From Alphaproteobacteria bacterium LSUCC0684 (GTDB taxonomy: Bacteria; Pseudomonadota; Alphaproteobacteria; Puniceispirillales; UBA1172), in the NCBI GenBank assembly GCA_041228335.1, contig CP166130.1:2008638-2072637 (forward strand): a stretch of DNA of 64,000 bases. The letters run 5' to 3'. Of this stretch, positions 26,243-43,673 are shown piece by piece. A model generated the notes under the pieces. The model searched no databases. It was not told the DNA's origin and saw only the letters and a list, made by a program, of their open reading frames with translations. The translations under genes and the position numbers were made by a program. Position 1 is the stretch's first letter; each line of letters starts with the position of its first letter.

Positions 26243-27135
26243 TTGCTTCTCAAATGTCTCAAAACATCGTTCCAGTCAATCGTCTCAGGAGCTTGCAATT
26301 TAGAAACTGTCCAGCCTGAATGAAATGCTCTTTCCGCCAAAATATAACCAGCATTTCGCCCCGCATCATCGCCATCGGTTGCAACAACAAGATGACCGGC
26401 ATTTTCCGGTAATTTCAGATTTTTCATACCTGATGAAGACAAAGCAGCCCATATTGAGCCAGCGAAATTCAATAAACCACAGCCAAGACTTAGTGCTGTT
26501 TCAATTCCTTCTGCAACCACCAAAGGTCCAGGAGAACCAAACAATCTAACGGCCCCTCCTGCACATTTACCAAGCATCATTTTTGGTGATAAAATGTCAG
26601 CTTTTTGGCTACTACTTCTGTTAAGGTATGTCCTGTGGATTGAAAATGTTTGACACCCTTCAATTTTAGAAATTAGTGCCGGAAGCTTCTGATTTGTTTC
26701 AGAGTGCTTTATTGAGGGGTGATAGCGTATTACAGTGGGAATATTACAATGTATATTTCGATTATGAAAATATGCCTCGGAAGGCGAACCTAAAACAGGT
26801 ATCGATTCTCGCCAAATTTTGTAAGCTAATTTGGAACCAATAGTATTATTATTTCCTACTTCAGGAGCGGGTCTTTCAACTGAGGACTTTTTATTACTTT
26901 TAGGTTCTTGAGAGTGTAATTTGAACAATCCTAAAATATCAATAAAGGGGCATTCTGATTTATGACAGTATAGGAGTAAAACGCCAGTGGCACTATTTCT
27001 TAGCGTTAATGCATTTTGGTCTTTTCTGCCTGTTGGTTGACATATTGGACACGGTCCAGTTCCATAAGAACCATGCCATCGCCCTCCAATCTTAGCAGTT
27101 AGGTGCTTTGCGTTTTGGACAATCGTATCATTCAT
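26239..27135 (-). CDS. Toprim-domain primase-like protein
   Basis: 298 residues. The N-terminal zinc-binding motif GPCPICQPTG...LLYCHKSECPF resembles primase zinc fingers. A Toprim domain follows, with VVAEGIETALSLG (catalytic Glu) and VVATDGDDAGRNAG (DxD-type metal site). Start MNDTIVQ at 27135 lies one base after the AlpA-type gene stop; a longer overlapping frame exists. It probably primes replication together with DUF3987. Archetypes are the satellite and phage primase-helicases of the P4-alpha and T7-gp4 type, here split into two genes. Confidence 0.82.
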   Translation of the reverse strand: MNDTIVQNAKHLTAKIGGRWHGSYGTGPCPICQPTGRKDQNALTLRNSATGVLLLYCHKSECPFIDILGLFKLHSQEPKSNKKSSVERPAPEVGNNNTIGSKLAYKIWRESIPVLGSPSEAYFHNRNIHCNIPTVIRYHPSIKHSETNQKLPALISKIEGCQTFSIHRTYLNRSSSQKADILSPKMMLGKCAGGAVRLFGSPGPLVVAEGIETALSLGCGLLNFAGSIWAALSSSGMKNLKLPENAGHLVVATDGDDAGRNAGYILAERAFHSGWTVSKLQAPETIDWNDVLRHLRSK

Positions 27136-27136
27136 T

Positions 27137-27352
27137 TCAATGATTTCTCCCCTCATACTCGGATGTTGAGAGAAATTGATTTGAGTTAATCCAGTCTGCA
27201 ATATCTTCTAGGGAATAAAATACCCGCCTTCCTAACTTACAGTACTTTGGCCCTCTACCTGACAAGCGCATTTTTGCCAAAGTGGATTTTGAAAGCCCTA
27301 GGTTCTTAGCGGCCTGAGATGTGCTTAGAATTATTGGTTGCTGAGGAAGCAT
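27137..27352 (-). CDS. AlpA/excisionase-like DNA-binding protein
   Basis: 71 residues with a MerR/AlpA-type helix-turn-helix: STSQAAKNLGLSKSTLAKMR, then GRGPKYCKLGRRVFYSLEDIADWI. The ATG at 27352 has GGAG eight bases upstream. In P4-like elements AlpA activates the integrase or acts as directionality factor. It heads an operon with the Toprim and DUF3987 genes and has an inverted repeat in its leader (27362-27398). Confidence 0.82.
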   Translation of the reverse strand: MLPQQPIILSTSQAAKNLGLSKSTLAKMRLSGRGPKYCKLGRRVFYSLEDIADWINSNQFLSTSEYEGRNH

Positions 27353-27361
27353 CGATATATC

Positions 27362-27398
27362 TCCATGAACTAAAAACAATGAGTTGATATTTCATGGA
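27362..27398. promoter_or_regulatory. Operator-like inverted repeat upstream of the AlpA-type gene
   Basis: TCCATGAA (27362-27369) and TTCATGGA (27391-27398) form a perfect 8-base inverted repeat separated by 21 bases, about two helical turns. It overlaps the ribosome-site side of the AlpA-type gene, so a bound protein would block the replication operon. Confidence 0.45.
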
Positions 27399-27478
27399 AG
27401 TTTTATCAATCACTATTGCTGTTGCGCACTCTAAATTTGCAGCAACACCAATTTGGTCTTTGGAGCATTATCGCTACT

Positions 27479-28171
27479 TCATCGATTTTTTTTCGCTAAG
27501 TCTGCAGAAAACTGCCCAAGATGCCTGACTATTGGGAGCAGTTCCTCAGCTTCCCTTTGGAGGGAATTTTCTGGAAACATTCTCGATACTGTTGAAACAT
27601 TCAAACCACATTCAGATGCTAGTTTTCGCATTGTGGGTGTTTGATTATTCATCAAACATTCTATTGCCAAAAACAGTATCGCGAAACGCTTTCCATCGTG
27701 TTCGATGTTTGCATCAAATTTGTTTCCTTCAAATGTTCCGATTTGATAGCCAATCAAAACAATTAAATCAGTTGGAAGTGAATGGATTTCATTTTTAACC
27801 AGTGATTCAAGCATTATCCAAATCAGATAGTTGACCAAAGCATCTGAAATACCTTGCTTAGAACTAACAACGTGTGTTGCGCCACTTTTTTCTAGATCTT
27901 TGCGTTGTAAGACCCTATCCATCAAGTCCAAACAAATTCTTGAAACTGCCTCACTATCACCATCGAGAGATCTAGCAATATCTTGGAGCTGGAGGTCATG
28001 TCTCTCTAGTATTTTTTCATTAGCAAGCAACCAATCCAGTCCAAACGAAAAATTTAATCCAATATATTTCTCTGGCTCTTCCCTTCGTATACGCAGGTAT
28101 TCTCTTAGAGTTCTGATCTTAGGAGATTTATCTACATCAGGCGGATAACCTTGATTCGATGACACTAACAA
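27479..28171 (-). CDS. Island protein with C-terminal helix-turn-helix
   Basis: 230 residues of no recognised family. Residues near 195-213 (TMRKLASECGLNVSTVSRMF) look like a sigma-type or LuxR/MarR-like helix-turn-helix, which suggests DNA binding. The rest is helical and charged. It lies between the integrase and the AlpA-type gene and could be the master regulator of the element. It has its own upstream gap of about 60 bases after the integrase stop. Confidence 0.55.
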   Translation of the reverse strand: MLVSSNQGYPPDVDKSPKIRTLREYLRIRREEPEKYIGLNFSFGLDWLLANEKILERHDLQLQDIARSLDGDSEAVSRICLDLMDRVLQRKDLEKSGATHVVSSKQGISDALVNYLIWIMLESLVKNEIHSLPTDLIVLIGYQIGTFEGNKFDANIEHDGKRFAILFLAIECLMNNQTPTMRKLASECGLNVSTVSRMFPENSLQREAEELLPIVRHLGQFSADLAKKNR

Positions 28172-28230
28172 ATTCTCCCTAAAATGATTGGTAATTCTAA
28201 ATTAATATATCTCGTCAAATGACCAAGTTC

Positions 28231-29451
28231 TTACCCTTTAATTGCTTTGCCAATTGTTGATGCGATGTTTTCACTTACCGCTTTTAATGGGTCATCCTGC
28301 AGATGCGCGTAACGAAGAGTTGTTTCACTATTTGAGTGTCCCAGGAGCGCTCCAATCATAGGAAGACTAGCACCTTCAGAAACAGCGATACTTGCAAAAC
28401 TGTGTCGAAGATCATGCAACCGCACATCTTGAAGTTTCGCATTGTTTCTAATAATTCTCCAGACTTTCGGAGTTCCAGTGTAATAACCTGCTCCACTCTC
28501 GGCAGGAAATACAAATTGAGAAAATTTTGATCTAGGAAACTTGGCTAATATATCGACCGCGTTTGAATTCATAGGCACAGATTTTTGACCTGTTTTTGAG
28601 TCAAAAAATCGAAGAAAGCCAGCACTGAAATCTATTGACTCCCATTTGAGTGTTTCGATCTCCCCTTTTCTAGCGCCTGTGAATATAAGTAATTTAACTA
28701 TGGTCAGCGCCTTTAAATTCAAACCACGCTTCTGGCAATCATCAAGCGCTTTACCAAGACGAATAAATTCATCATGGCTTAAAAAGCGCTCAGATTTTTT
28801 CCCAGGATATTTTTTTACACCATGGACTGGATTAGATGTCAGCATTCCCAAGTCAATTGCATAAGTAAAAATCCCTCCAAGTAATCCTAACGTTCGAGAA
28901 GCTGTTCCTTTCCCACCTGTGACAATTGCACGACCTCTCAATCCAGTTTTCTGATCGACTGCCGTCTTTCCCATCGCCACCGAATTGAGAAATTTCTTAA
29001 TCTCAGCACGGTTAATCTCACTGACCTTTTTCCTGCCTATTAACGGTTTAATATGACGCTCAATACGACCTCTATCAGTGGAGATTGTGCTATCTTTTTT
29101 CGAACCAATCCCGTGTTTAAGATATAGATCACACAATTCTGAGACCGTAATTTCTTTTTTTGCTTCTTGCTTTAATTCCGAAGGATCTTGTCCCTGGGCA
29201 ACCTGCCCAAGAATCTGCTTCGCCTTGACCCTTGCCTGATCAACTGTCCAAGGTGAACCGTGAGCACCTATTGTGTATCTTCGGGACTTTCCAGCGCGCC
29301 CTCCGGCCAGACGATACTGGCATACATATGCCTTTCGACCACCCTTACAAATTTTTATGCCAAATCCCTTTAACTCACCATCCCATAGAAAATAATCCAT
29401 TTCCTTTGGTGCAGCTTGATCAATTTTAATTTTGGTTAATCTTCCAGACAA
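28231..29451 (-). CDS. Tyrosine recombinase (site-specific integrase)
   Basis: 406 residues with the P4-type layout: an N-terminal arm-binding DUF4102 domain (LKGFGIKICKGGRKAYVCQYR), a SAM-like core-binding domain (ITVSELCDLYLKHG) and the catalytic domain. Catalytic residues visible are Arg in FTGARKGEIETLKW, then HDLRHSFAS (His-x-x-Arg), His in LLGHSNSETTLRYAH and the nucleophile Tyr in the same segment. It inserts the element at tRNA-Arg. Its start is 171 bases from the right att copy, with the second arm-like repeat in between. Confidence 0.93.
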   Translation of the reverse strand: MSGRLTKIKIDQAAPKEMDYFLWDGELKGFGIKICKGGRKAYVCQYRLAGGRAGKSRRYTIGAHGSPWTVDQARVKAKQILGQVAQGQDPSELKQEAKKEITVSELCDLYLKHGIGSKKDSTISTDRGRIERHIKPLIGRKKVSEINRAEIKKFLNSVAMGKTAVDQKTGLRGRAIVTGGKGTASRTLGLLGGIFTYAIDLGMLTSNPVHGVKKYPGKKSERFLSHDEFIRLGKALDDCQKRGLNLKALTIVKLLIFTGARKGEIETLKWESIDFSAGFLRFFDSKTGQKSVPMNSNAVDILAKFPRSKFSQFVFPAESGAGYYTGTPKVWRIIRNNAKLQDVRLHDLRHSFASIAVSEGASLPMIGALLGHSNSETTLRYAHLQDDPLKAVSENIASTIGKAIKG

Positions 29452-29486
29452 CTTTTGCTCTCCTGGTCAGATCCTTTACATTAAAG

Positions 29487-29507
29487 TAATCACATAGTAA
29501 GCAAATC
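29487..29507. repeat. Island-end direct repeat, right copy
   Basis: TAATCACATAGTAA (29487-29500) directly followed by GCAAATC, matching the copy at 18068-18092 apart from a four-base insertion there. It lies between the integrase start and the right att copy. A separate AT-rich inverted repeat, AATATTA/TAATATT, is at 29563-29581. Confidence 0.5.
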
Positions 29508-29622
29508 GTTATGCATGTCAATCAAAGCAAATAAATCATAATGTATTTAACTTATTGTATTTAATATTATATAGTAATATTGATCACCTTAAAAATATCA
29601 AAATATCTTTACATCCTCTGCT

Positions 29623-29667
29623 CTCCGAAGGCAGAGGTCAGAGGTTCAAATCCTCTCGGGTGCACCA
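29623..29667. repeat. Middle attachment site (junction of two elements)
   Basis: 45 bases repeating the tRNA-Arg 3' half with two G-to-A differences (one in the T loop, one at the discriminator base). The 5' half of the tRNA is absent, so this is not a functional tRNA. It separates the intact element from the decayed one. Confidence 0.88.
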
Positions 29668-29744
29668 TTTACCCCATGAAACCCTGATGTAACCCATTGG
29701 AATCACGCAGTTCCTAGTGTTTTGCTGTCCAGAGGGTAGACCAA

Positions 29745-30059
29745 ATGGGAGACCATTTTCCGCCGTATATCTATACCAAACGCGGGACCTTTTATTTCTC
29801 CCGGCGTATTCCCAAGGATGTGCAGGGGCATTTCAACACTGAACGCATCATGTGTTCGCTGAAAACCAAAGCACTCTCTCGGGCTTCACGCCTCGCACAG
29901 CGGTTAAATGAAGACCTTGAGGATGAATGGTGGCAGATACGCCGCCGCAATGCAGAGACCATGTTTTCACGGTTCCTGAAGGAGCAAACTGGCCCGCTAG
30001 CTCCTTCTGATTTTCCATCCTTGAGTGATTTGGGGGTTATAAACACAAACACTATCTAA
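29745..30059 (+). pseudogene. Truncated tyrosine integrase (N-terminal fragment)
   Basis: 104 residues starting MGDHFPPYIYTKRGTFYFSRRIPKDVQ, the N-terminal arm-binding region typical of one integrase group (DUF6538-like), with VMCSLKT-like and ASRLAQRLNEDLE segments. The core-binding and catalytic domains are missing: the frame ends after about 100 residues in VINTNTI. It is therefore an integrase remnant adjacent to an att copy. Confidence 0.75.
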
Positions 30060-30215
30060 AGTCTGTGTTGTTTAAGTTTCTCGGGATGAGTTCTAATTGT
30101 AAACAAACTGTAAACAGAATAGATAAAACCAAAAATGCACCTTATGATTTAATTGTATATTTTAAACCAATTTAATGAATTATAACATATTTTTATTTAT
30201 CATTAAGGAACTTGG

Positions 30216-30944
30216 ATGCTTCTTTCTACTTTCTATTTTTTTGCAAAAATATTCAGATATTTGCCAAAGACAAAGAAGGTACATTTGCTTGATATGAATG
30301 CCACTTTCTTTGTTCCGATAAATAACCATTATGTATGTGACGACTTAATTGACATATCAAAACAAAAAAGAGAACCAGTGTTATATGAATGGCTGAATAA
30401 TTTGGACGATGGTTCCATTTTATTTGATATCGGAACAAGTTATGGCCAAGAATCTTCACTAGCGTCATCTTTAACAAATAAAAATGTAAAGGTCTTTGGG
30501 TTTGATTGCAGTCTTTATCAAAGTCACTTTTGTGCATTAAATAAGAAACTCAATAACGACAGATTTAAGTTCATATTTGCCGCAGTTGGGGCAAGATCAG
30601 GGGAATTAATAAATATCACGGCTAACTCTGATACGCATATACCGTCATTACATAAAAAGAATGTCACTTACGAGTATGAAGTAATGTCTCTTGCATTAGA
30701 TGATTTTGCAAAATCAAATAATGTTACGCCAACCCATATAAAGATTGATGTTGATGGAGCGGAAAACGAAGTATTGAAAGGCGCAATTAATATACTTCAA
30801 TCTCAATCAATAAAAGAAGTCTTCATAGAAATAGATAATGATAATCTTGCCATTATAGATTTTATGACTTCACAAGGATTTAAAATCCGTTGGCAAGTTA
30901 GCAAAGACCAGAATGTTGATATTCTTTTTTCAAAATCTTCTTGA
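30216..30944 (+). CDS. FkbM-family methyltransferase
   Basis: 242 residues. The SAM-binding region LFDIGTSYGQESSLAS and the family hallmark HIKIDVDGAENEVLKGA are present, so the protein is probably an active O-methyltransferase of sugars or lipids. The ribosome site AAGGAAC precedes the ATG. Very AT-rich and isolated, it is cargo of the decayed element. The acceptor cannot be predicted. Confidence 0.85.
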   Translation: MLLSTFYFFAKIFRYLPKTKKVHLLDMNATFFVPINNHYVCDDLIDISKQKREPVLYEWLNNLDDGSILFDIGTSYGQESSLASSLTNKNVKVFGFDCSLYQSHFCALNKKLNNDRFKFIFAAVGARSGELINITANSDTHIPSLHKKNVTYEYEVMSLALDDFAKSNNVTPTHIKIDVDGAENEVLKGAINILQSQSIKEVFIEIDNDNLAIIDFMTSQGFKIRWQVSKDQNVDILFSKSS

Positions 30945-32062: not shown

Positions 32063-32698
32063 CTATTTGGTGCCGTACATCCGGTCGCCCGCATCACCAA
32101 GACCAGGCAGAATATACCCATGGTCATTGAGCTCACGGTCAATGGCGGCGGTGTAGATCGGCACATCGGGATGCTCGGCGGAGAAGGATGCAATCCCTTC
32201 CGGTGCGGCAAGAAGGCAGACAAACTTGATCCGCTTGGCGCCGGCATCCTTGATCCGCTGCACCCCGGCGGCGGCTGAATTGCCCGTGGCCAGCATCGGG
32301 TCAACCACCACGCAGACACGTTCATCAAGGCTTTCCGGCAGTTTCAGATAATATTCCACCGGCACCAGCGTCTTCGGGTCGCGATAAAGACCGACATGAC
32401 CGACACGCGCCGAGGGAACGAGATCAAGCATGCCATCGAGAAGCCCGTTGCCCGCCCTCAGGATGGAGATGAAACACAGTTTCTTGCCCTCAAGCTTGGG
32501 AAGTTTTGCCACTTCAAGCGGGGTCTGGATATCCACCTCTTCGGTTTCCAGATCACGGCAGACCTCATAGGCGAGCAGCAGGCTGATCTCCCGCAGAAGC
32601 TGGCGGAATTTCGCCGTTGGCGTTTCCACATCCCGCATGATGGACAATTTATGCTGGATCAGCGGGTGATGGACGATACTGGCGTTATGGTCGGTCAT
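32063..32698 (-). CDS. upp: Uracil phosphoribosyltransferase
   Basis: 211 residues; makes UMP from uracil and PRPP. The PRPP-binding loop [16 protein letters not shown] and the uracil-binding C-terminus [11 protein letters not shown] are present. The start at 32698 has a GGAGG site; a 21-codon upstream extension is not family-like. It is the last gene of the minus-strand urc-like run, 37 bases after the DUF1688 gene. In the yeast URC pathway this enzyme (URC6) performs the entry step, which explains its place here. Confidence 0.96.
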
Positions 32699-32735
32699 CG
32701 GGGAGTCCTCCTTCTTCAAAAGATCAAGGGAATGG

Positions 32736-33977
32736 TCAGAAAATCGTGCCGCTGCTGTCAAGCGTCAGCGGCGGGCCGCCATCGGGGCGAAACTCTCTTG
32801 CGATCTTTCGTCCAGCGGTCCAGGTACCGCCCTGAAGCACGCTTGCAAGAGGCAGGCTTTCCGCGTCATCGCCTGTATGCTGGCGCACGGCTGCCGCCAC
32901 CTTGTCGAGCAGCGCCACGGTCAGCCCGCGCCATTCCACCACCAGCGGGCTTTTCGGGTGATGCGCCAGAGCCGCCGCGTCGGCATCCTTAAGGGAAAGG
33001 ACTTCCGTGTCGATAAATAGTCCGCCATTTCTGTATTCGGCAAGCCCGGTCAGTGCATCGAGTTCCACCACCCTGATCCCGGCCTCTTCAAGAGGTTCGA
33101 TCAAGGAATAAGCCATCCATTGCGAGAGTTTATGAAAAGGCAGGACACCATTGGTGATATCCTGCCGGATGATCTTCGGATGATGGCCGACATCGCCAAC
33201 CGGGATATCACCCAGACGCACGCCTTCCGGCCAGATGCTGCCGATCCCGCGCAACAGCGCGATGAGAATTTCACGCGCCTTCAGCCCCTCGCCTTCCTGC
33301 CGGGCGGTCAGATAGTCATAGAGATTTCCCGGGCGCAGCTCGCCATCCCGGCCGAACATCTCCGCCGCCCCGCCGAGGGCAGCCCCAAGCCGGTTGAGAA
33401 GCCCTGCCCGTTCTTCCAGCCCGACAAGCGGGTTCTCGGAACTGACCTGGAAGACTTCAGCCAGATCTGCCGCACTTATGGCTTCCAGCGCTACTGCATC
33501 GACACGAAGAGGGTCATCAACTCCATACCGGCTGAGCCTGCCGCTTTCCACCAGACGAATGCTGGCAAGGGCAAGTCCTTCGGATCTGCCGTAGACAAGC
33601 CCGGTTCCGGCATCGGCATACTGCCACTCCGCCCCGGCCCCGGCATCGAGCAGAACCGACACCACCGCAAGATCCATCCGCCGACGTGCCTTCTCTTCTG
33701 GGGATACATCAGCAAGCCCCGCCGCCAGTTCTGCCCAGAGATCTCGGCCACCGAGCTCAAAATGCCGCCACCGGCTGTGGAACGGCACCTTGCCATCAGG
33801 ATAGTTGGTGCGTATTTCCTCAAGCACCAGTTCCGTTGCGGCGTCAAGGTTTTCAAGGTGGAGATGAAAATGATCAACCTCGCCGAGTGTGGCGGCATCG
33901 AACAGCTCATGGCAACGCTGGCGGACAGATTCAGGCGTCAGCAGAGCGGTGACGGCATCTTGATCCCCTGTCATCAT
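32736..33977 (-). CDS. DUF1688 protein, URC4-like (uracil catabolism)
   Basis: 413 residues of the DUF1688 family, whose fungal members (Urc4/Urg3) are required for uracil catabolism. Seen: [26 protein letters not shown] near the N-terminus, [28 protein letters not shown] and [16 protein letters not shown]. Its biochemical reaction is not established to my knowledge. It overlaps the URC1-like gene by ATGA, which supports a shared pathway or complex. Normal length, no disruption. Confidence 0.88.
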
Positions 33978-35215
33978 TCGTCGATTGCCCTGCCCTTGAC
34001 CCCATCGAGATCCTCCCCTTTCTTCGGGGCCTCCTTGGTGAAATATCCGGCCGCTTTCTTGGCTTCCATTTCGACATGCGCATCTTCGGGGATCAACTCT
34101 TCCGGGATATCAAGCCGCTCACCGATTTCGATACCCTGGGCGACAAGTGCATCATGTTTCATGTCGCTCATCGAAGCAAAGCGGTCAATCCGCGTGATCC
34201 CAAGCCAGTGGAAGATATCCGGCATCAGTTCCTGAAAGCGGGCATCCTGAACACCGGCGACGCATTCGGTCCGCTCGAAATACTTGGCGGCGGAATCTCC
34301 GCCTTCCTGGCGTTTGCGGGCGTTATAGACAAGAAACTTGGTCACCTCGCCCAGCGCCCGGCCTTCCTTGCGGTTATAGACCACCAGCCCGTTGCCCCCT
34401 TTCTGGGCCATGTCGACACAGATCTCGATCCCATGGGTAAGATAGGGCCTGCAGGTACAGATATCCGAGCCGAACACATCAGAGCCATTGCATTCATCAT
34501 GCACGCGGCAGGCGAGCGGTACCGCCAGATCATGAAGAGTTTCAGGATCGCCGAAAATATAGGCGGTAATACCGCCGATCGGGGGCAGAAACACCTCAAG
34601 ATCCGATCGCGTCACCAGTTCCGGATACATCCCGCCCATCTGCTCAAAAATCACTCGCCGGAACGCGTGTTCATCGACCCCGAACCGCCGCGCCAGACCC
34701 GGAATATACCAGACCGGATCAATCGCGATCTTCGTGACATTCACATCGCCGTTGCCGAGTAGCACCCGGCCATCCGGCTTCAGCCTGCCCTGATCGATAG
34801 CATCGCGAAGTTCCATCAGTTTGAGCCTGGCCTGGGTGATGGCAATCGTCGGGCGGATATCAAACCCTTCGCTGATCTGTTCCTTGAATTCATCCGCCAC
34901 CACATGCCCCCAGGGATCAAAGGAGACGATTTTCTCCGGTTCACTCCATTGGGGATGCGGGCCGATGCGGGTGACCGGGGAAGTGTTGGTCAGGTCCGGC
35001 ACATGCGCGGGATCAAGCCTGCCAGCAGCAACGGAAACGGCACGATACACGGAATAACTGCCGGAATGCGTCCCGATGACATTTCGATGCATGGGATTGG
35101 ATACGCTGCCAATCACCGGGCCGCGACTGCGCGCGTCTTCCGCACCCCAGTGGATCGGGGAGAAATAGTTCGACCTTGAATGGGACGTCAATACGATATG
35201 GCGAGGGCTGGACAT
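33974..35215 (-). CDS. GTP cyclohydrolase II homologue, URC1-like
   Basis: 413 residues. The GTP-cyclohydrolase-II domain keeps the zinc cysteines in the segment beginning CRVHDECNGSDVFG and ending CTC, and has EGRALGEVTKFL. The N-terminal 150 residues (SHSRSNYFSPIHWGAEDAR...) are not found in RibA but are typical of the Urc1-type subgroup. In yeast, URC1 acts on a uracil-derived nucleotide, not in riboflavin synthesis. The start at 35215 is chosen for its AGAGGT site. A RutR palindrome lies 128 bases upstream. Confidence 0.88.
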   Translation of the reverse strand: MSSPRHIVLTSHSRSNYFSPIHWGAEDARSRGPVIGSVSNPMHRNVIGTHSGSYSVYRAVSVAAGRLDPAHVPDLTNTSPVTRIGPHPQWSEPEKIVSFDPWGHVVADEFKEQISEGFDIRPTIAITQARLKLMELRDAIDQGRLKPDGRVLLGNGDVNVTKIAIDPVWYIPGLARRFGVDEHAFRRVIFEQMGGMYPELVTRSDLEVFLPPIGGITAYIFGDPETLHDLAVPLACRVHDECNGSDVFGSDICTCRPYLTHGIEICVDMAQKGGNGLVVYNRKEGRALGEVTKFLVYNARKRQEGGDSAAKYFERTECVAGVQDARFQELMPDIFHWLGITRIDRFASMSDMKHDALVAQGIEIGERLDIPEELIPEDAHVEMEAKKAAGYFTKEAPKKGEDLDGVKGRAIDE

Positions 35216-35342
35216 CTGATTACCTCTTTCCGAAAGCCTTTCCGCTGGCGCTGTCTTATCCGTTCCAGTTCGGATGGTACCTGGGCCGGATTCCGGCCTT
35301 GCTGCCCCATCCCTGCTGATCATCAACTAGCCTAGATATAAC

Positions 35343-35358
35343 TTGACCATTTGGTCAA
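35343..35358. promoter_or_regulatory. RutR operator palindrome
   Basis: TTGACCATTTGGTCAA is a perfect inverted repeat and matches the known RutR box (TTGACCA, two bases, TGGTCAA). It lies between the RutR-like gene and the URC1-like gene. On the minus strand its TTGACC could also serve as a -35 element for the URC1-like operon, so binding would compete with RNA polymerase. RutR releases DNA on binding uracil or thymine. Confidence 0.88.
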
Positions 35359-35390: not shown

Positions 35391-36023
35391 TTATCTTGTT
35401 CCAAGGCCGCGGAGGATCACTTCGGTAACGGTTTCAACGGCTTTTGCGTATTCATCGGCGCTGATCGTCTCGCTCCCGAGCACAGCGGTGATCTGGGTGC
35501 TGAAATCAGCGTATGTCTGGGTAGCCGCCCATATAAGGAAGAGCACATGCCGGGGCGGAACTTCAGCCATCTCCCCGCGCGCCTGCCAGATCTCGAACAC
35601 CTCGGCCTGTTTGCTGACCCAGTCTTTCAGATCATGGGCCAGATAGTCGCCGATGACCGGAGCACCGGCGATAATCTCCATGGCAAAGACCTTGGAGGCA
35701 TTCGGCCGTTTCAGCGACAGATCCATTTTCGCTTCGATATATTTTCGCAAAGCATCCTCCGGCTTGTCCTTCGCCGAAATATCGCCGAGCGCTCCAAGCC
35801 AGGTTTCGAGAATATCCTGGCAGACAGAACGGTAAATCTCTTCCTTGCTGCGGAAGTAATAGAGAAGATTAGCCTTTGGCAGACCGGCTTCAGCGGCGAT
35901 TTCCATCAGCCTTGCTCCGCTGAAGCCCTGCCGGGCAAAAACGGTTTCAGCGGCCTTGAGGATACGGGCCCTCATTTCCGCCCCGCTCCTTGTCCTGGCG
36001 CTATTGGAGGCCGGCCTGGTCAC
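35391..36023 (-). CDS. rutR: TetR-family regulator, RutR type
   Basis: 210 residues. The N-terminal helix-turn-helix (ARILKAAETVFARQGFSGARLMEIAAEAGLPKANLLYYF-type region, residues 19-57) is followed by a RutR-like C-terminal ligand domain (FAMEIIAGAPVIGDYL, FLIWAATQTYADFSTQI). The WAATQTYADF segment is typical of RutR. The start is a GTG at 36023. The matching operator 32 bases downstream of its stop supports the name. It lies 8 bases after the DUF1989 gene and probably senses uracil. Confidence 0.87.
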   Translation of the reverse strand: MTRPASNSARTRSGAEMRARILKAAETVFARQGFSGARLMEIAAEAGLPKANLLYYFRSKEEIYRSVCQDILETWLGALGDISAKDKPEDALRKYIEAKMDLSLKRPNASKVFAMEIIAGAPVIGDYLAHDLKDWVSKQAEVFEIWQARGEMAEVPPRHVLFLIWAATQTYADFSTQITAVLGSETISADEYAKAVETVTEVILRGLGTR

Positions 36024-36031
36024 GTCAGCCC

Positions 36032-36718
36032 CTACGCCTCGACCGTGAAATGCAGTTCGGTGGGCACCGCGTCACGGCCATTGATCGGGTTCTTGTCCTG
36101 CGGGCAGGCGGACATCACGGCAATGGAGTCTTCAAGCGCCCTGAGACCCACCACATCTCCGGGGGATGAGACCGTCGGCTCAAAAGAGGTACGACCTTCA
36201 TCCGTGATGGGAATATTCATCCAGAGATTGAACGGATCGGGAACCAGCGGCGGCGTGAGCCCGATTGCCTTAAGTGCCATCCGCAGATTATCAGCGCAGT
36301 TGTCATGATATTCGTCACATCCCAGCAACTGATACCGCGGCCAGTCGCAGCAGGACATGATCGTATCATGCACCCCCGGCGAGGTGTCGCATTCAATTTC
36401 AAGCAGCGGCTGGCGCCGATTGGTCACAAGCTTGTCCCCGACTTTCGGGAAAACGGACTGAAGCCAGGTCCGGCAATGCGACATGGAAAGAAACTGCCCC
36501 ATATCCGATCCCAGATAGGCCCAGAAGTCACAGACCTGCGTGCCGTGGGTATTCTCTACCCGCAACAACTGCCCTGCCTTGAGGCGGACCGCGACGCCAC
36601 ATCGGGGCGGGATACGGTAACGCATGCCGGTCTCGGGCGTGCCGTCGGGCGAAACAGCTGCGGTCAGGCTGGCATTTACCCCTTCGGAAAAGGCGGGGTC
36701 ATATAAAGGCAGGCTCAT
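36032..36718 (-). CDS. DUF1989 (urea-carboxylase-associated family) protein
   Basis: 228 residues of DUF1989. Family members accompany urea carboxylase, and some are carboxyguanidine deiminase subunits. Conserved-looking residues include CDFWAY, SMSHCRTWLQ, HDTIMSCCDWPRY, CADNLRMAL and NLWMNIPI. Here it is embedded between the cytosine deaminase (3 bases away) and rutR, with no urea carboxylase in sight. It may hydrolyse a ureido or carbamoyl intermediate of ring breakdown; this is inference from family and position. Confidence 0.85.
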   Translation of the reverse strand: MSLPLYDPAFSEGVNASLTAAVSPDGTPETGMRYRIPPRCGVAVRLKAGQLLRVENTHGTQVCDFWAYLGSDMGQFLSMSHCRTWLQSVFPKVGDKLVTNRRQPLLEIECDTSPGVHDTIMSCCDWPRYQLLGCDEYHDNCADNLRMALKAIGLTPPLVPDPFNLWMNIPITDEGRTSFEPTVSSPGDVVGLRALEDSIAVMSACPQDKNPINGRDAVPTELHFTVEA

Positions 36719-36721
36719 CTC

Positions 36722-37171
36722 TCAGTCCTCGGCGATATCTTCGGCCCAGAGTTCGGGTTTCTCGCGGATGAATCTCTCCATCAGCGCGATGCAGTCGGGG
36801 TCATCGGCGATGACGATTTCAACCCCGCGCTGGCGGAGAAACTCTTCATTGCCGCCGAATGTTCTGTTCTCGCCGATCACGACCCGCGGGATACCGAACT
36901 GGACGATGGTGCCGCTGCACATCATGCAGGGGCTCAGCGTCGTATAAAGCACGGTGTCACGATAGGTTTTCTGCCGCCCGGCCTTGCGCAGGGCATCCAT
37001 TTCTCCATGGGCGATCGGATCACCCTGCTGAACCCGCTGGTTATGCCCCCGCGAAACCTCCCGGCCATCGCGCGCCAGTACCGAGCCGATGGGGCAGCCC
37101 CCGGCATCAAAACCTGCCTTCGCCTCGGCATAGGCAATCTTCAGCATTTCCCTGTCGATATCCGTGATCAT
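36722..37171 (-). CDS. Cytosine deaminase, yeast Fcy1-like
   Basis: 149 residues of the CDA fold. Zinc and catalytic residues are His55/Glu57 (HGEMDAL) and Cys82/Cys85 (SPCMMC). The C-terminus (RGVEIVIADDPDCIALMERFIREKPELWAEDI) closely resembles the yeast enzyme Fcy1, which converts cytosine to uracil, rather than tRNA-adenosine or guanine deaminases. This would feed uracil into upp and the urc genes. Gaps to both neighbours are under 15 bases, so it is co-transcribed. Confidence 0.85.
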   Translation of the reverse strand: MITDIDREMLKIAYAEAKAGFDAGGCPIGSVLARDGREVSRGHNQRVQQGDPIAHGEMDALRKAGRQKTYRDTVLYTTLSPCMMCSGTIVQFGIPRVVIGENRTFGGNEEFLRQRGVEIVIADDPDCIALMERFIREKPELWAEDIAED

Positions 37172-37184
37172 GATTTTCCCTTTT

Positions 37185-38075
37185 CTAGCTCGAGCGTCCT
37201 ATTGGTGCGGTGTAATAGGGGAGTTTATCCCGCCGCGGCACATACGCACCACTGGCCACCACCTGATCCAGATGATCGGCGATCTGGTCCAGCCGGGCAA
37301 ACCAGACATGTTTTGAGTTTAGCGTCTCTTCCAGCCAGGCCTCGACCTGTTTCCAGCGGGCCAGCCTGCCGGTGAGGAAAGGATGGAGGATGAGCATGAA
37401 AAAACCTCCGGCCTCATAGGCGGCCTCGAATTCCTCCCAGAAACCGGACAGGCCCACCGACGGCGCCTTGACCGGCATCATATATCCGATTTCGGCGTAA
37501 TGCGCGAAAGGCGGCCAGTCATCGCCCCCCCAATGTACCGGCATTTCCCAGAGCCCGCCATCTTTTGTCTCAAGCCGGTAGGGAATATCATCGGCCATCA
37601 TGGACGAATCATACCGGAAGCCATGTTCGATCAGAAGATCGACGACTTCCTGATTGATGTTATAGACCGGCGCCCGATATCCGGCCGGGGTGCCGCCGCA
37701 GTATTTATGATGCACCGCCAGCGCTTTCTCGAACCAGGCACGCTGGTCCGGTGCGTCAATCGGGTCTTCATGCAGATAGCCGTGATGGCCGATCTCATGC
37801 CCGCCCTCAAGAATGGCCTCAACGGCGTCAGGGTAGGTTTCAATGCACCAGCCGGGAATGAAGAAGGACTGCTTGATGCCCAGCCTCCGATAGGTTTCAA
37901 GAATCCGCGGCACGGCCACGGTCGGCCCGTAACGCCCCATGCTGATTGGATAGAGCCGATCGTTGGAATCATCGGGGCGGGTGATATGAATGAGGCTGTC
38001 CGCATCCATGTCAAAGGATATCACGCAGGCGCAGCGGGCGCCATTCGGCCAGGGTACAGGGTTGCTGATCATCAA
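37185..38075 (-). CDS. Polysaccharide-deacetylase-fold hydrolase (imidase/allantoinase-like)
   Basis: 296 residues, NodB-like fold. The metal site is formed by FDMDAD and GHEIGHHGYLHED, with YRAPVYNIN and a late HPFLTGR His. No signal peptide or lectin domain is present, unlike cell-wall deacetylases. This cytoplasmic subgroup includes PuuE allantoinases and cyclic imidases, which open cyclic amides. Its position between a nucleobase deaminase and the transporter suggests cleavage of a cyclic ureide. The exact substrate is unknown. Confidence 0.83.
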   Translation of the reverse strand: MMISNPVPWPNGARCACVISFDMDADSLIHITRPDDSNDRLYPISMGRYGPTVAVPRILETYRRLGIKQSFFIPGWCIETYPDAVEAILEGGHEIGHHGYLHEDPIDAPDQRAWFEKALAVHHKYCGGTPAGYRAPVYNINQEVVDLLIEHGFRYDSSMMADDIPYRLETKDGGLWEMPVHWGGDDWPPFAHYAEIGYMMPVKAPSVGLSGFWEEFEAAYEAGGFFMLILHPFLTGRLARWKQVEAWLEETLNSKHVWFARLDQIADHLDQVVASGAYVPRRDKLPYYTAPIGRSS

Positions 38076-38090
38076 AATCTCCTCATCTAC

Positions 38091-39179
38091 TTATCCGGCA
38101 CCAATATAATGGGCACGTTCCGATGCCCAAGAAACATAAACCTTGCCCATATGCTTTAAATCCATATCCGCAAGTTCACGTTCCTGGATCTGCACCTTGA
38201 ACTCGCTGCCGTCAGGGGCTTCGAGGAAAAGCGTCACCACCGAGCCGATGAATTCCTCGGAAATCAGCGAGCACTCAATGCTGTTGGCGGCTTTTGGCCG
38301 GGTTGCGGAAAGATGGACAAGATCAGCCGCGATGACGAAACTCCCCGCATCGCCCGGCGCGGGCTTCGGCCTATCCCCGAGATGAAGCGTAAACGTGCCG
38401 AGATCACCCTCAAGGGTCACCGTCTTGCCTTTGGCCGATTTCACCTTGCCGCTGATGATGTTGTTGCGGCCGACAAATTCAGCCACAAACCTGTTGGCCG
38501 GGGCACGATAGATATCCTTTGGCGCACCTATCTGCGCGATATGCCCCCGTGACATGATCACCACCCGGTCAGCCATGGCAAAGGCTTCGGACTGGGAATG
38601 GGTCACATAGACAAAGGTGATCCCCAATTCACGCTGCAGGCGGGTGAGCATCGACTGCATCCGAATGACAAGATTGGCATCGAGCGCTGAAAGAGGTTCA
38701 TCCAGAAGAAGGATTTTCGGTTCCGTCACCAGCGAACGGGCCAGGGCAACACGCTGTTTCTGGCCGCCCGAAAGACTGCTGATGTCACGTTCGGCAAATT
38801 CACCGATTTCAAGCCGGTCAAGCCATTCAAGAGCCTTGCGTCGCCGCGTCGCCGCATCCACCCCGCGCATCTGAAGCCCGAACTCGACATTCTCCCGGGC
38901 GTTCAGGAAAGGAAACAGCGCCAGCGACTGCCAGACCATCGGGGTATCACGCTCATGCGGCGGCACCGTGTTCATGACCCGGCCCTGCATCCGGATCTCT
39001 CCTTCCGACGGTGCCTCAAGCCCTGCGAGCATCCGCAGGGTTGTCGTCTTGCCGCAGCCCGACGGCCCCATGATGGCGATGAACTCACCTTCATCAATGG
39101 TGAAATTCATGGTTTCCACGGCGGTGAAATCACCGAATCTCTTGACCACCGAATCAAATTCTACCAATGCATCAGCCAT
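38091..39179 (-). CDS. ABC transporter ATPase, spermidine/putrescine (PotA) type
   Basis: 362 residues. Walker A GPSGCGKTT, signature LSGGQKQRVALARSL, Walker B LLLDEPLSALDAN, then a C-terminal TOBE domain (GRNNIISGKVKSAKGKTV). It powers the importer formed with the two permeases and the binding protein upstream. It overlaps the PotC-like gene by eight bases and is followed 15 bases later by the deacetylase-fold gene. Although of the polyamine class, the context suggests a nucleobase, nucleoside or ureide substrate. Confidence 0.92.
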   Translation of the reverse strand: MADALVEFDSVVKRFGDFTAVETMNFTIDEGEFIAIMGPSGCGKTTTLRMLAGLEAPSEGEIRMQGRVMNTVPPHERDTPMVWQSLALFPFLNARENVEFGLQMRGVDAATRRRKALEWLDRLEIGEFAERDISSLSGGQKQRVALARSLVTEPKILLLDEPLSALDANLVIRMQSMLTRLQRELGITFVYVTHSQSEAFAMADRVVIMSRGHIAQIGAPKDIYRAPANRFVAEFVGRNNIISGKVKSAKGKTVTLEGDLGTFTLHLGDRPKPAPGDAGSFVIAADLVHLSATRPKAANSIECSLISEEFIGSVVTLFLEAPDGSEFKVQIQERELADMDLKHMGKVYVSWASERAHYIGAG

Positions 39180-39978
39180 GATTTCCCTTTTCTTTCTTTT
39201 GCCGTGTCATCAGCACCACCTGGGCGATGATGACCAGCGTCATGGAGGTCAGGAAGACAAAACTTCCGATGGCGTTGACCTGCGGATCAATATTGCCGGT
39301 CACGATTTCAAGAATGATAACCGGTATCGTCTTGTTGAGGCCTGAGATGAACCAGGCAATGGCAAATTCATCAAAGGATACAGCCGCCGTCAGACAGAAG
39401 GATGAGATAATGGCAGGACGGCAGAAGGGGATGATCACCCGCCTCAGCGCCCGCCACTGATCTGCCCCGAGATTCCAGGCCGCCGCCTCGAGACTTGGAT
39501 CCATCTGGCTCAACCGCAGACGGATGATGGCCATGGCAAAAGGTGCCGTCAGCACGGTATGGGCAATGATGATCGACACGACCTGCCCCGAAAGACCGAT
39601 CTTGGCAAACCATGCCAGCATGGCCAGCGCCATGATGATCAGCGGTATAGTCGGCGGCAAGAGGATCAACGCCAGATAAAGCGGCTTGAGCTTGAACCGG
39701 TAGCGATAATCCGTATAGGCGGTGGTAAAGCCGAGAAAGGTTGCAAGAAAGGCAACCGAGAGCGACACAAGCAGGCTTGTTCTGGCCGCTTCCCAGACAT
39801 CGGGGTCCTGCCAGATTGTCTCATACCATTTCAGCGTGAAACTGCCGAGCGGAATGGTCGGGAACCGGTCCGAATTAAAGGAAAAAATGATGCTGAAGAC
39901 AATCGGCGCGAAGATGAAAACAAAGACAAGCCCGAGATAGCCGAACAGAAACCCTTTGAGCAGACGGTCACTTTTCAT
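39172..39978 (-). CDS. ABC transporter permease, PotC type
   Basis: 268 residues, six predicted transmembrane spans (first: FLFGYLGLVFVFIFAPIVFS) and the cytoplasmic coupling EAA motif EAAAWNLGADQWRALRRVIIP. The start at 39978 is fixed by an ATGA overlap with the PotB-type gene; a frame extending further upstream is low-complexity glycine and not credible. Confidence 0.92.
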   Translation of the reverse strand: MKSDRLLKGFLFGYLGLVFVFIFAPIVFSIIFSFNSDRFPTIPLGSFTLKWYETIWQDPDVWEAARTSLLVSLSVAFLATFLGFTTAYTDYRYRFKLKPLYLALILLPPTIPLIIMALAMLAWFAKIGLSGQVVSIIIAHTVLTAPFAMAIIRLRLSQMDPSLEAAAWNLGADQWRALRRVIIPFCRPAIISSFCLTAAVSFDEFAIAWFISGLNKTIPVIILEIVTGNIDPQVNAIGSFVFLTSMTLVIIAQVVLMTRQKKEKGNHG

Positions 39979-40877
39979 GAAACTCTCCGCCGGTAGGCCG
40001 CCGCAATCCCGGCAAATGCGACGATGAACAGCGTGACCATCATGACCACCGCCACCACCGCCGCCCGGGGCCATTGCTGGCCGGATTTGACCGTATCGAC
40101 AATCAGGATCGGCAGGGTTGGCGGCTTAGATCCGCCGAGATAATAGGGGCTCACGAAATCACCGAAAGACAGGATGAAACAGAACACCGCCGCGATGATG
40201 AGGCCCGTGCGCGCCAGCGGCAGCACGACACGGAAGATGGTGCGCCAAGGCCGGCAGCCGAGGTTATGCGCCGCCTCGACCAGCGACCGGTCAATATTGG
40301 CAAGCGAAAACGTCTGCAGGATGATGACCAGCGGCAGGGTCAGGGTCATGTAGCCGATGATGGTGCCGAATTTGGTATTCAGCATCACATAGGGCCCAAG
40401 CCCGATATAGCCCAGCACGGCATTGATGACACCACTTTCCGCCAGGATCACATACCAGGAAAATATCCGCACAAGATAACTGGTGAAAAAGGGGATGATC
40501 AACAGAAACACCGCCCAGCGGCGGGTGGTCTCCGACACCCGGAAAGCAAGAGTATAGGCGGCCGGAAAGGCAACCGTCATGACCACCAGCGTTGCCAGCG
40601 TCGCAAGACCAAGGGTCAGCGCGTAACTGTCCCAGAAATAGTCCCGGCTCATCATCTTGAGCCAGTTCTTCATCACGAAGGCTTCGGTCATGCGGTAGTT
40701 GCGCACGATGAAGAACGACATCGCCACCATGAAGATCAATGGCGCAATAAAGAAAAGGGCCTGCCATATCACGATCGGCAGACGCAGACTGTACTTGAAA
40801 AGAGACAGGCGCGCGAAAAGCCCCGAAGATCCGGCCTCCGTTATTCCTGTTTCCGATGATTTGCCTGAAACAGGCAT
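39975..40877 (-). CDS. ABC transporter permease, PotB type
   Basis: 300 residues. A 35-residue polar N-terminus is followed by six membrane spans (first: IWQALFFIAPLIFMVAMSFF) and the EAA loop EAAHNLGCRPWRTIFRVVLP. Coupled to the PotC-type gene by a four-base overlap. An 89-base gap separates it from the binding-protein gene, where I see no clear terminator. Confidence 0.92.
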   Translation of the reverse strand: MPVSGKSSETGITEAGSSGLFARLSLFKYSLRLPIVIWQALFFIAPLIFMVAMSFFIVRNYRMTEAFVMKNWLKMMSRDYFWDSYALTLGLATLATLVVMTVAFPAAYTLAFRVSETTRRWAVFLLIIPFFTSYLVRIFSWYVILAESGVINAVLGYIGLGPYVMLNTKFGTIIGYMTLTLPLVIILQTFSLANIDRSLVEAAHNLGCRPWRTIFRVVLPLARTGLIIAAVFCFILSFGDFVSPYYLGGSKPPTLPILIVDTVKSGQQWPRAAVVAVVMMVTLFIVAFAGIAAAYRRRVS

Positions 40878-40966
40878 ATTTCACCACTATCCTGGAATGG
40901 CTGATCTGATATCAGGTCCACAGGACAGGGATTGCTCCCTGCCCTGTATCGCAGTATCGATATCGA

Positions 40967-42103
40967 TCATGCGTTCTTGTATTCGGACCAGAAATCGTTC
41001 CAGTCTTCCAGCGACTGCTGAACAGGAATGTTCCGGTAATGGATACGGCCTTCCTTGACCAGGGTAATCGGATCATTGGACATGCCATCGATCTGGCCTG
41101 TCCGTTCGGCTTCCTTCCGGTCAACCTCGATCAGCTTGGCGCGACCGGATTTGGTGATCGCGAAACCGGGATAGGCGGCCATCTGCGCCGATTTCACCTG
41201 ACCTTCCGGAGACAGCATGTACTGGATGAACTTCTTCACGATATCAGCTTTCTCGGAGCCTTTGCCGATACAGTAGGATTCCGTCCACTGGATGCCGCCT
41301 TCTTTCGGCACCACGGAACCAACCGGCGCACCGTCCTTTTCCAGCACCCCGGTGATCCAGTCACCGATACCGCACATCGCCAGCATCTCGCCGTTCTTCA
41401 GCGAGTTGAATGTCCCGCCGTAATCGAAATACCCGCCAACCTGCGGCCGAAGCGACAGGGTGGTGTCCTGAACCTTGTCCCACTGGCTGTCGGAAAGATC
41501 CCAGAGACCGGCGCCATTGCCGTTGTAAAGGCTCATCATGCCGAGACTTGGAAGATGCCAGTCGAAATGGCCGACCTTGCCCTTGACTTCCGGCTTCCAG
41601 AAGCAGGAATAGCTCATCGCTTCCTCGGCGGTGATGGCGTTCTTGTTATACGACACCCCGAGATGTCCGAAGCGGACCATCATCGAAAAGAGTTTGCCGT
41701 CCTTCCAGTGCCCCGGGAATTTCGTGAAATCCTCATAGAGCATATCGTCAAAAGGATAATCCGCAGCATTGAGCTCTTCGATATATCCCGCCGCGTTGAG
41801 CTGCTGGACAAATTCACCATCGGAAAGAATGACATCATAGGTACCGGGAGGAGACTGGGCGATCAGGCCGAGCATGTTATCGCCGCCAGCATAATATTTC
41901 GGCTTGAACTTGACGTTGTTCGCCGCTTCGAATTCGCTGACGATATCCGGCTCGCCATGGCCGTACCAGGCCAGCATGTTGATCTCAACCGGTGCGGCCC
42001 ATGCGCGTGAGATAAACGGCGTTGAAAGTGCAGTTGCCCCGCCATAAGCCAGTACCTGCCGCCGTGATGGCGTATGCGTCAGAATTGAACTTTTGTTCTT
42101 CAT
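40967..42103 (-). CDS. ABC transporter substrate-binding protein, PotD type, Tat-like signal
   Basis: 378 residues. The N-terminus SRRQVLAYGGATALSTPFISRAWA is a twin-arginine-type signal with cleavage after AWA. The mature part is a PotD-like type II fold (NMLAWYGHGEPDIVSEFEAANNV). The start at 42103 is placed by a GGAGG site nine bases upstream. It is the first gene of the long minus-strand run leading to upp. Ligand residues cannot be assigned from sequence alone. Confidence 0.9.
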   Translation of the reverse strand: MKNKSSILTHTPSRRQVLAYGGATALSTPFISRAWAAPVEINMLAWYGHGEPDIVSEFEAANNVKFKPKYYAGGDNMLGLIAQSPPGTYDVILSDGEFVQQLNAAGYIEELNAADYPFDDMLYEDFTKFPGHWKDGKLFSMMVRFGHLGVSYNKNAITAEEAMSYSCFWKPEVKGKVGHFDWHLPSLGMMSLYNGNGAGLWDLSDSQWDKVQDTTLSLRPQVGGYFDYGGTFNSLKNGEMLAMCGIGDWITGVLEKDGAPVGSVVPKEGGIQWTESYCIGKGSEKADIVKKFIQYMLSPEGQVKSAQMAAYPGFAITKSGRAKLIEVDRKEAERTGQIDGMSNDPITLVKEGRIHYRNIPVQQSLEDWNDFWSEYKNA

Positions 42104-42291
42104 GCCAGAAATCCTCCAAATATTCTTGTTATGCAAACCAAGTTTTCACCAATTCGGTCAGATTTGCAAAAACATTCATCCTGTGGTTAGCATCAGGCAG
42201 GAGAATCTATCCATTAGGGTCAGGGCTTCTGTATCAGATCACCTGGGCCAGGTCCGGCCAGATATCGAGGGAAAAGGCGCCGCAAAATAAG

Positions 42292-43035
42292 ATGAACAGG
42301 TTTGAATTCCATCATTTATTTAACACAAAAGGTCCGGTCATCCTGCCGGTCATTCATGTCATTGACCGCGGCCAGACCGCAGCCAATATCGACAAGCTTG
42401 TCCATGCCGGGATCAGCGGATGTTTTCTGATAAATCATGATTTCGATGTGGCAACCTTCCTGCCCATCATCCGTTCGATTCGTTCCCGCTATCCGGATTT
42501 CTGGATCGGGATCAATTTTCTGGCGGTCACCGGCCTTGAGGCATTTCCTGTACTGGCCTTGCTTGAACGTGACGGGTTCAGGATCGATGCCTATTGGGGA
42601 GACGATGCCCGCATCGACGAAAGAACAGATGATCAGCCCGAAGCAGAAGCCATCAGTAAGACACGGGTTGAATCCGGCTGGAAAGGGCTTTATTTCGGCG
42701 GCACCGCATTCAAGAAGCAGCGTCCGGTCAACCCCGATGATTACGCAACTTCCGCCCACATCGCCGGCGGTTACATGGATGTGGTGACCACCTCGGGCAT
42801 TGCGACCGGCAACGCCGCCGAAATCAGCAAAATCGCGACCTTCCGTTCGGCCTTGCCGGATACACCGATCGCGCTTGCCTCCGGCATTACTCCAGAAAAC
42901 GCCGAAGATTATCGAATGGTTGATTGTTTCATGGTTGCGACCGGCATCAATATTGACAATGATTTTTACAATATTGACCCGGCGAAACTGCACCAGCTTA
43001 TGTTGCGCTGCCAGGAAATGGAGGATCAGATATGA
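42292..43035 (+). CDS. BtpA/SgcQ-family TIM-barrel protein
   Basis: 247 residues of the BtpA family (VILPVIHVIDRG near the N-terminus, YWGDDARIDE, SGWKGLYFGGTAFK, VTTSGIATGNAAEISK, ASGITPENAEDY). Named members include BtpA, linked to photosystem I stability, and SgcQ, a putative nucleosidase; the reaction is unknown. It is divergent from the importer operon, 188 bases from its first gene, and overlaps the phosphoribosyltransferase gene by ATGA. Together they may handle a ribosylated base, which is inference. Confidence 0.83.
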   Translation: MNRFEFHHLFNTKGPVILPVIHVIDRGQTAANIDKLVHAGISGCFLINHDFDVATFLPIIRSIRSRYPDFWIGINFLAVTGLEAFPVLALLERDGFRIDAYWGDDARIDERTDDQPEAEAISKTRVESGWKGLYFGGTAFKKQRPVNPDDYATSAHIAGGYMDVVTTSGIATGNAAEISKIATFRSALPDTPIALASGITPENAEDYRMVDCFMVATGINIDNDFYNIDPAKLHQLMLRCQEMEDQI

Positions 43036-43673
43036 CCGAAACCACCATCACGAAAGATAACGGGGCACGAAAAGACCGCTGGTATCTTCGTATCATGTCA
43101 CCGAATACAAAAGGCGAAAAATTTGCCTGGCTTGATCCAACCTCCATCTATATCAACGGCGAGGCGTTTCATGATCTGCTTGATGACCTCATGGCCGATC
43201 TCGGCGAGGTGAAATGTGATGTGGTGGGCGGGCTTGATGCCATGGGATTTGTCCTTGGCTCGGCACTGGCAACACGTCTTGGCGTCGGCTTTCTGCCGAT
43301 CCGGAAAGCAGGCAAACTCTGCGTTGATACCGACAGCGTCAGTTTCTCGAACTATTCCGGCCGCACCCAGGATATGGAAATCCGCAAACCTGCCTTTGCT
43401 GAAGGCACCCGTGTTCTTCTGGTGGATCAGTGGATCGAAACAGGCGGCACCATGGACGGCGCCATCCGCCTGATTGAAAAACAGGGCGGCAAGGTTGCAG
43501 GGCTCGTTGCCATCGCCATGGAAGGCAACGCCCAGACCGCCGGATACCGAACCCGCTTTCCCTGCATCACCGCGGTTCAGCCTGGCACGGACCTGCAGGA
43601 GCAGTGCAACCGCCAGAATCTTGAAAGTTTTGCTGAATACAAACCTGAAATGGCCTTTCCCCGCTTGCGCTAG
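43032..43673 (+). CDS. Phosphoribosyltransferase (APRT/OPRT-like)
   Basis: 213 residues. The PRPP-binding motif VLLVDQWIETGGTMDGAI is clear, and GGLDAMGFVLGSALATRLGVGF matches the type I PRTase substrate hood region. The 40-residue N-terminal part (DRWYLRIMSPNTKGEKFAW) is unusual for APRT. It may convert a base taken up by the neighbouring importer to a nucleotide. Coupled to the BtpA-like gene; converges with the hydroxypyruvate-isomerase-like gene. Confidence 0.82.
   Translation: MTETTITKDNGARKDRWYLRIMSPNTKGEKFAWLDPTSIYINGEAFHDLLDDLMADLGEVKCDVVGGLDAMGFVLGSALATRLGVGFLPIRKAGKLCVDTDSVSFSNYSGRTQDMEIRKPAFAEGTRVLLVDQWIETGGTMDGAIRLIEKQGGKVAGLVAIAMEGNAQTAGYRTRFPCITAVQPGTDLQEQCNRQNLESFAEYKPEMAFPRLR

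Follow-up and report, generated by a model that had tools for sequence, protein, structure and literature searches.

The URC pathway of uracil degradation is known mainly from yeast, the fungal regulator being the zinc-finger factor URC2, and bacterial versions have been little studied. The gene set comprises URC1, URC4 and a uracil phosphoribosyltransferase, UPP (PMC3869809; PMC2174524), and the products formed from uracil are urea and 3-hydroxypropionate (PMC3869809; PMC7530994). The same three families (a GTP cyclohydrolase II-like URC1, a DUF1688 URC4 and a uracil phosphoribosyltransferase) are encoded by the Lachancea kluyveri URC genes and by urg1-3 in Schizosaccharomyces pombe, and in the latter yeast uracil induces urg1-3 (PMC2174524).

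RutR of Escherichia coli, a regulator with a TetR fold and a PF08362 domain, has 16-bp boxes of the consensus TTGACCANNTGGTCAA at rutA and carAB, and uracil impairs its binding to DNA (PMC10891134). Its uracil pocket is formed by W77, W167, Q171, Y97 (via a water molecule) and, from the partner subunit, Q179; two lysines, K52 and K62, take part in DNA binding (PMC10891134). RutR regulons with taxon-specific changes of the motif were reconstructed in 68 genomes in the RegPrecise collection (Leyn et al., 2016; PMC5343134); the main text of that study names pyrimidine degradation and no URC genes, and the RegPrecise tables outside the main text may already list URC genes as predicted RutR targets, for example in Cupriavidus or Ralstonia. 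No paper in the literature searched names RutR together with URC1.

Here we describe a locus of the marine Alphaproteobacteria bacterium LSUCC0684, contained in a window of 64,000 nucleotides (the whole stretch of DNA analysed, to which coordinates refer unless stated otherwise). The locus shares with the E. coli system the TetR fold with PF08362, the uracil- and DNA-contact residues and the 16-bp box, and with the RegPrecise regulons the regulator group and motif family (PMC5343134). Unlike in E. coli, the predicted target is URC1-URC4-UPP and not rutABCDEFG, and the regulator gene lies upstream of the target and co-directional with it. From the sequence and its conservation, synteny, the association of the site with the regulator gene, conservation of the ligand pocket and the genome's complement of uracil-degrading enzymes we infer, with considerable confidence, that the 16-mer at 35343-35358 serves as operator for the RutR-family repressor encoded next to it, which would block the URC1-URC4-UPP promoter until released by uracil. 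The parts are known; what is new is that they occur in combination, that SAR116-type bacteria conserve this combination and that it recurs.

Candidate operator site and URC operon

The candidate operator and the genes on either side of it are:

35343 to 35358, no strand assigned: RutR-type operator (putative) TTGACCATTTGGTCAA, reading TTGACCAAATGGTCAA on the minus strand, two 7-bp arms with a central TT
35391 to 36023, minus strand: RutR-family TetR regulator of 210 amino acids with a GTG start (PF08362, PF00440), its stop codon 32 nt before the operator
33974 to 35215, minus strand: URC1-like gene, GTP cyclohydrolase II-like with N-terminal domain PF12471 (NF005536, 749.8 bits at a cut-off of 403; PF12471 and PF00925)
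32736 to 33977, minus strand: URC4-like gene (DUF1688; PF07958, 449.6 bits), overlapping the end of URC1 by 4 nt
32063 to 32761, minus strand: uracil phosphoribosyltransferase, UPP (URC6 role; TIGR01091, 273 bits at a cut-off of 208; PF14681)

The recognisable domain of UPP starts about 25 residues in, so that the true start is probably near 32692. The 16-mer matches the consensus with zero mismatches and occupies the gap between the RutR-family gene and URC1-URC4-UPP, where the preliminary description had placed a perfect RutR palindrome between a RutR-like and a URC1-like gene; location, neighbouring genes and identity to the consensus were exact, and the 7-base arms match, but because the TT between them is not palindromic the word perfect is true of the arms only. 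The same description had proposed a genome scan for further copies of the 16-mer. Scanning the whole genome (2,704,644 bases) identified this site as the single exact match. Base composition predicts 0.008 such matches per genome; for the interval from the rutR stop codon to the URC1 ATG the expectation is about 5e-7. Two matches with one mismatch, at genome positions 814402 and 1873957, are both intragenic.

The match at 814402 (genome G000) lies about 190 nt into an M20 amidohydrolase gene; in one checked Rhodobacteraceae genome (L278), a gene of this type is the neighbour of rutR and its boxes. The match is absent from three relatives and is therefore probably due to chance. Further RutR targets in this genome were accordingly rejected, as both one-mismatch sites are coding and the M20 site is not kept in relatives.

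No RutA and no dihydropyrimidinase scored over the respective family cut-offs in the genome, and hence URC is the sole uracil-degrading route found in a search that covered RutA and dihydropyrimidinase; control of a rutABCDEFG operon by the regulator does not apply in a genome without RutA over the cut-off. To judge from their families, the downstream enzymes would have URC activity.

Beyond the URC cluster, a tyrosine integrase (28231-29451, minus strand), a Toprim/DUF7146 primase-like gene (26239-27201, minus strand) and an FkbM methyltransferase gene (30216-30944, plus strand) were observed. This stretch (26239-30944) is a mobile-element remnant adjoining the catabolic cluster.

Conservation within the order

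Among 136 genomes of the same order, full-length relatives of URC1 with 84-87% identity were found in three (G482, G473, G483) and relatives cut by contig ends in two (G314, G474). RutR relatives of at least 63% identity occurred in exactly the URC1-bearing genomes, six including the present one, and nowhere else in the order. One of these loci (L208, on a contig in common with L138) belongs to SAR116 cluster bacterium AG-325-I21. The gene order is the same in all five related genomes, and in each the box lies between RutR and URC1, exact in four and with one mismatch in L137 (last A to G).

When the six intergenic regions were aligned, 13 of the 14 specified box positions were invariant and the two N positions read TT or AA. 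The rest of the spacer has diverged, except that the box is preceded by A-rich sequence and that a T-A pair stands exactly 18 nt past TTGACC.

More distant RutR proteins (40-46% identity) are encoded at loci L305-L317 of the same order, and some 100 nt ahead of the gene stands a variant of the site, TTTACCGNNTGGTCAA (read on the opposite strand as TTGACCANNCGGTAAA); this is apparently a diverged operator class.

The regulator, its upstream cluster and its predicted ligand

Both domains of the regulator exceed the gathering scores (TetR_N, PF00440, 48.1 bits; TetR_C_3, the YcdC-type C-terminal domain PF08362, 166.3 bits), and the nearest solved structures are those of E. coli RutR (3loc, E 6e-44), with which identity is about 35-40%. 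RutR remains the best family match in NCBIfam, with scores under the equivalog cut-offs (TIGR03613, 189.3 of 368 bits; NF011584, 173.9 of 230 bits), and the protein is therefore a member of the RutR family and not an equivalog of the rut-operon regulator. All five uracil-contact residues of E. coli RutR (W77, Y97, W167, Q171, Q179) are identical in the regulator (W75, Y95, W165, Q169, Q177), as are the DNA-contact residues K52 and K62 (K50, K60). This predicts that the regulator binds uracil. The seven residues are common to all 120 RutR-family rows compared, and their invariance is thus neither proof of a uracil ligand for this branch nor a means of separating sub-branches.

Upstream of and co-directional with rutR, the following genes were annotated:

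36032 to 36718, minus strand: DUF1989 protein (PF09347), resembling urea-amidolyase-associated proteins
36722 to 37171, minus strand: yeast-type cytosine deaminase, predicted to convert cytosine to uracil (PDB 1uaq/1ysb family, E ~1e-41, residues 5-148)
37185 to 38075, minus strand: polysaccharide-deacetylase-fold (PuuE-like) hydrolase (PF01522; weak TIGR03212)
38091 to 42136, minus strand: ABC importer genes ahead of the same cluster, their gene order conserved in the order
38091 to 39179, minus strand: ABC importer ATPase
39172 to 40074 and 39975 to 40877, minus strand: ABC importer permeases
40967 to 42136, minus strand: ABC importer solute-binding protein

In the direction of transcription on the minus strand, the order is thus solute-binding protein, two permeases, ATPase, PuuE-like hydrolase, deaminase, DUF1989 protein, RutR-family regulator, box, URC1, URC4 and UPP. 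With a deaminase of the type found in yeast for cytosine, the cluster could plausibly convert cytosine to uracil. An alphaproteobacterial URC locus with no RutR gene in view (L071:1507-1935) carries, directly after UPP, a deaminase 67% identical to that of the window, which supports cytosine-to-uracil conversion as a feed of the URC pathway.

Two further observations concern this neighbourhood. At 42022-43673 (plus strand), divergent from the importer operon, a gene for a BtpA-like TIM-barrel protein overlaps one for a phosphoribosyltransferase; the pair possibly shares the same nucleobase metabolism. Box-like matches with three mismatches number 13 in the window, compared with 2.5 expected from shuffles, and six of them cluster in the importer genes (39142-41811), possibly as a result of codon composition.

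The same RutR-family operator could respond to an effector other than uracil, such as thymine, cytosine, an intermediate of the URC pathway or a compound derived from purines and tied to the upstream genes. The uncertain substrates of the ABC importer, the PuuE-like hydrolase and the DUF1989 protein speak for this reading, as does the distant relationship of the SAR116-type regulator to E. coli RutR. We nevertheless consider it unlikely, since all five uracil contacts are conserved, the controlled genes act on uracil or UMP and a cytosine deaminase belongs to the same cluster.

Candidate promoter of URC1

Two elements of a candidate URC1 promoter were identified:

35353 to 35358, minus strand: candidate -35 element TTGACC, within the operator; TTGACC-N18-TA invariant in six loci
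35329 to 35334, minus strand: candidate -10 element TAGGCT, 18 nt past TTGACC, a weak match to the consensus

The -10 variants among the six loci are TAGGCT, TAGCAT and TAAAAA. A sigma-70 consensus scan did not call the candidate URC1 promoter, because the -10 element is poor. The suggestion that TTGACC serves as a -35 element is plausible given the TAGGCT downstream of it on the minus strand and the T-A pair invariant at that spacing, and an overlap of the operator with the URC1 -35 element is likewise plausible, because TTGACC and the TA stand at a fixed distance.

No autoregulatory box was found, in the window or in the relatives, before the importer operon that carries rutR. Unlike in many relatives, rutR is thus perhaps not autoregulated here, and transcription of the upstream operon could read through the operator. 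RutR might act as an activator, or as a road-block to such read-through, and not as a repressor of a promoter. The operator does lie between two co-directional transcription units, the -10 element is weak, and E. coli RutR indirectly activates carAB (PMC10891134). Against this, the putative -35 element is overlapped at fixed spacing in six loci, which is the usual place of a repressor, and the box of betaproteobacterial loci is close before URC1; a role as activator or road-block is, in our judgement, quite unlikely.

Association of box and regulator in Pseudomonadota

Of 385 genomes sampled from the class, 38 carried URC4, as did 26 of 398 sampled from the phylum. Most of these URC4-bearing genomes keep the order URC1-URC4-UPP and lack both the box and a RutR gene within 8 kb; in L192, L193 and L202 a RutR gene follows UPP and the box precedes URC1. 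A scan for relatives of these regulators, with one genome per species, returned 80 loci, among which 14 had the arrangement URC1-URC4-UPP-RutR with the box before URC1 (Cupriavidus species, Zoogloea, Caldimonas and two MAGs; L212-L214, L217, L219-L223, L225, L230, L231, L235, L238). In the remaining loci RutR is located elsewhere, and in many Rhodobacteraceae and Mesorhizobium the box lies in front of rutR itself; in the one case checked, the gene on the other side of the box encodes an M20 amidohydrolase.

For a count over all URC1 loci, a box was scored when the 12-base core TGACCA-NN-TGGTCA occurred, with no more than one mismatch, less than or equal to 150 nt from the start of URC1, and duplicates were removed. 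The box was present before URC1 in 21 of 21 loci with an adjacent RutR gene and in 0 of 52 without one (Fisher p 9e-19, a value inflated by related species, the loci not being independent; some linked loci came from the RutR search, none chosen because a box was present). The box therefore tracks the regulator gene and not URC1 itself. A general association of RutR with URC operons was rejected, the 52 distinct unlinked URC1 upstream regions lacking the box, with best core matches at 3-6 mismatches of 12.

One structural rival has to be taken seriously, namely that the repeat, which can form a hairpin and has T-rich sequence following it, ends the rutR transcript as an intrinsic terminator. 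The repeat lies 32 nt past the rutR stop codon, its hairpin reaches -9.1 kcal/mol with flanks (z -3.6), a T-rich stretch follows in some relatives and a terminator scan lists it as terminator-like on both strands. The fold computed for L192 is left aside, as the sequence folded does not include the box. However, the stem has just 6-7 bp with 3 G-C pairs and is not the GC-rich stem of a terminator, and across loci base identity is kept and not pairing alone, the change in L137 being uncompensated. In betaproteobacteria, where the RutR gene comes after UPP, the core is found 11-48 nt ahead of URC1, and many alphaproteobacteria have it ahead of rutR, where it cannot end the rutR transcript. Together with the association of the site with an adjacent RutR gene, this makes a terminator very improbable. 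Chance occurrence of a common motif can practically be dismissed, because the roughly 31 genome matches at up to two mismatches (14 for the reversed control) are outweighed by the low expectation of an exact match and by conservation in six diverged loci.

Proposed control of the URC operon

According to the operator reading, an apo-RutR dimer on 35343-35358 would cover the -35 element of URC1 on the minus strand and block RNA polymerase. Uracil would be supplied by import, or from cytosine through the upstream cytosine deaminase, and on accumulating would enter the conserved W-Y-W-Q-Q pocket, whereupon RutR would leave the DNA and the URC genes would be expressed, with transcription of URC1-URC4-UPP probably starting near 35321. 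The uracil would then be degraded by URC chemistry and not by the Rut or the reductive (Pyd) pathway.

The earlier proposal that RutR has been adapted to a chemically different uracil pathway gains support from four independent lines, namely the conserved box, the 21 of 21 against 0 of 52 loci, the contact residues and a URC gene set in a genome without RutA or dihydropyrimidinase over the cut-offs. It requires amendment in two respects: the regulator is not a RutR equivalog, and the arrangement is not a one-off, as it recurs in Cupriavidus, Zoogloea and Caldimonas.

Origin of the RutR-URC pairing

The RutR-URC operons of these three genera resemble that of the window in having the box directly before URC1, the order URC1-URC4-UPP and an adjacent RutR gene. 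They differ in that RutR follows UPP, whereas it precedes URC1 in the SAR116-type loci, and in that the box, mostly CTGACCANNTGGTCAG (CTGACC...GGTCAG), stands ahead of the URC1 start at the distance given above, whereas TTGACC...GGTCAA overlies the candidate -35 element in SAR116-type loci. A tree of 120 RutR rows unites the SAR116-type regulators in a single clade (support 100/94) and places the URC-linked regulators of betaproteobacteria on another branch, in a well-separated group; given the starred branches, the URC label must have changed two or more times. The URC1 tree likewise separates the two lineages.

A shared single origin of the alpha- and betaproteobacterial pair is thus disfavoured by the trees, but a single clade of RutR-URC regulators was not rejected by the AU test (p 0.109), so that separate origins are likely and not proven. 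Two separate couplings would, on these sequences, be likelier than one. We lean slightly towards a coupling of RutR to URC at least twice, in SAR116-type alphaproteobacteria and in betaproteobacteria, each time with a new operator before URC1, which would make RutR a general uracil switch re-plugged onto Rut, Pyd or URC. It was also considered whether the outermost base of the operator (T or C) goes with a residue of the helix-turn-helix motif (NLLYYF or NLHYYF, L versus H); Caldimonas (L225) breaks this link.

Implications

The window encodes the same enzyme set as the fungal URC and urg systems. Unlike these, it is a bacterial operon under a putative RutR-family repressor, to which the fungal regulator is unrelated; in contrast to E. 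coli, the genome holds a single exact site. A conserved, putatively uracil-responsive repressor together with its operator before URC1-URC4-UPP provides strong genomic evidence for a role of bacterial URC genes in uracil degradation. The inducer it implies, uracil, is testable, and Cupriavidus offers an easily handled test bed. RutR would appear to follow the ligand and not the pathway: sensor and site stay constant, and the chemistry predicted to be under their control differs.
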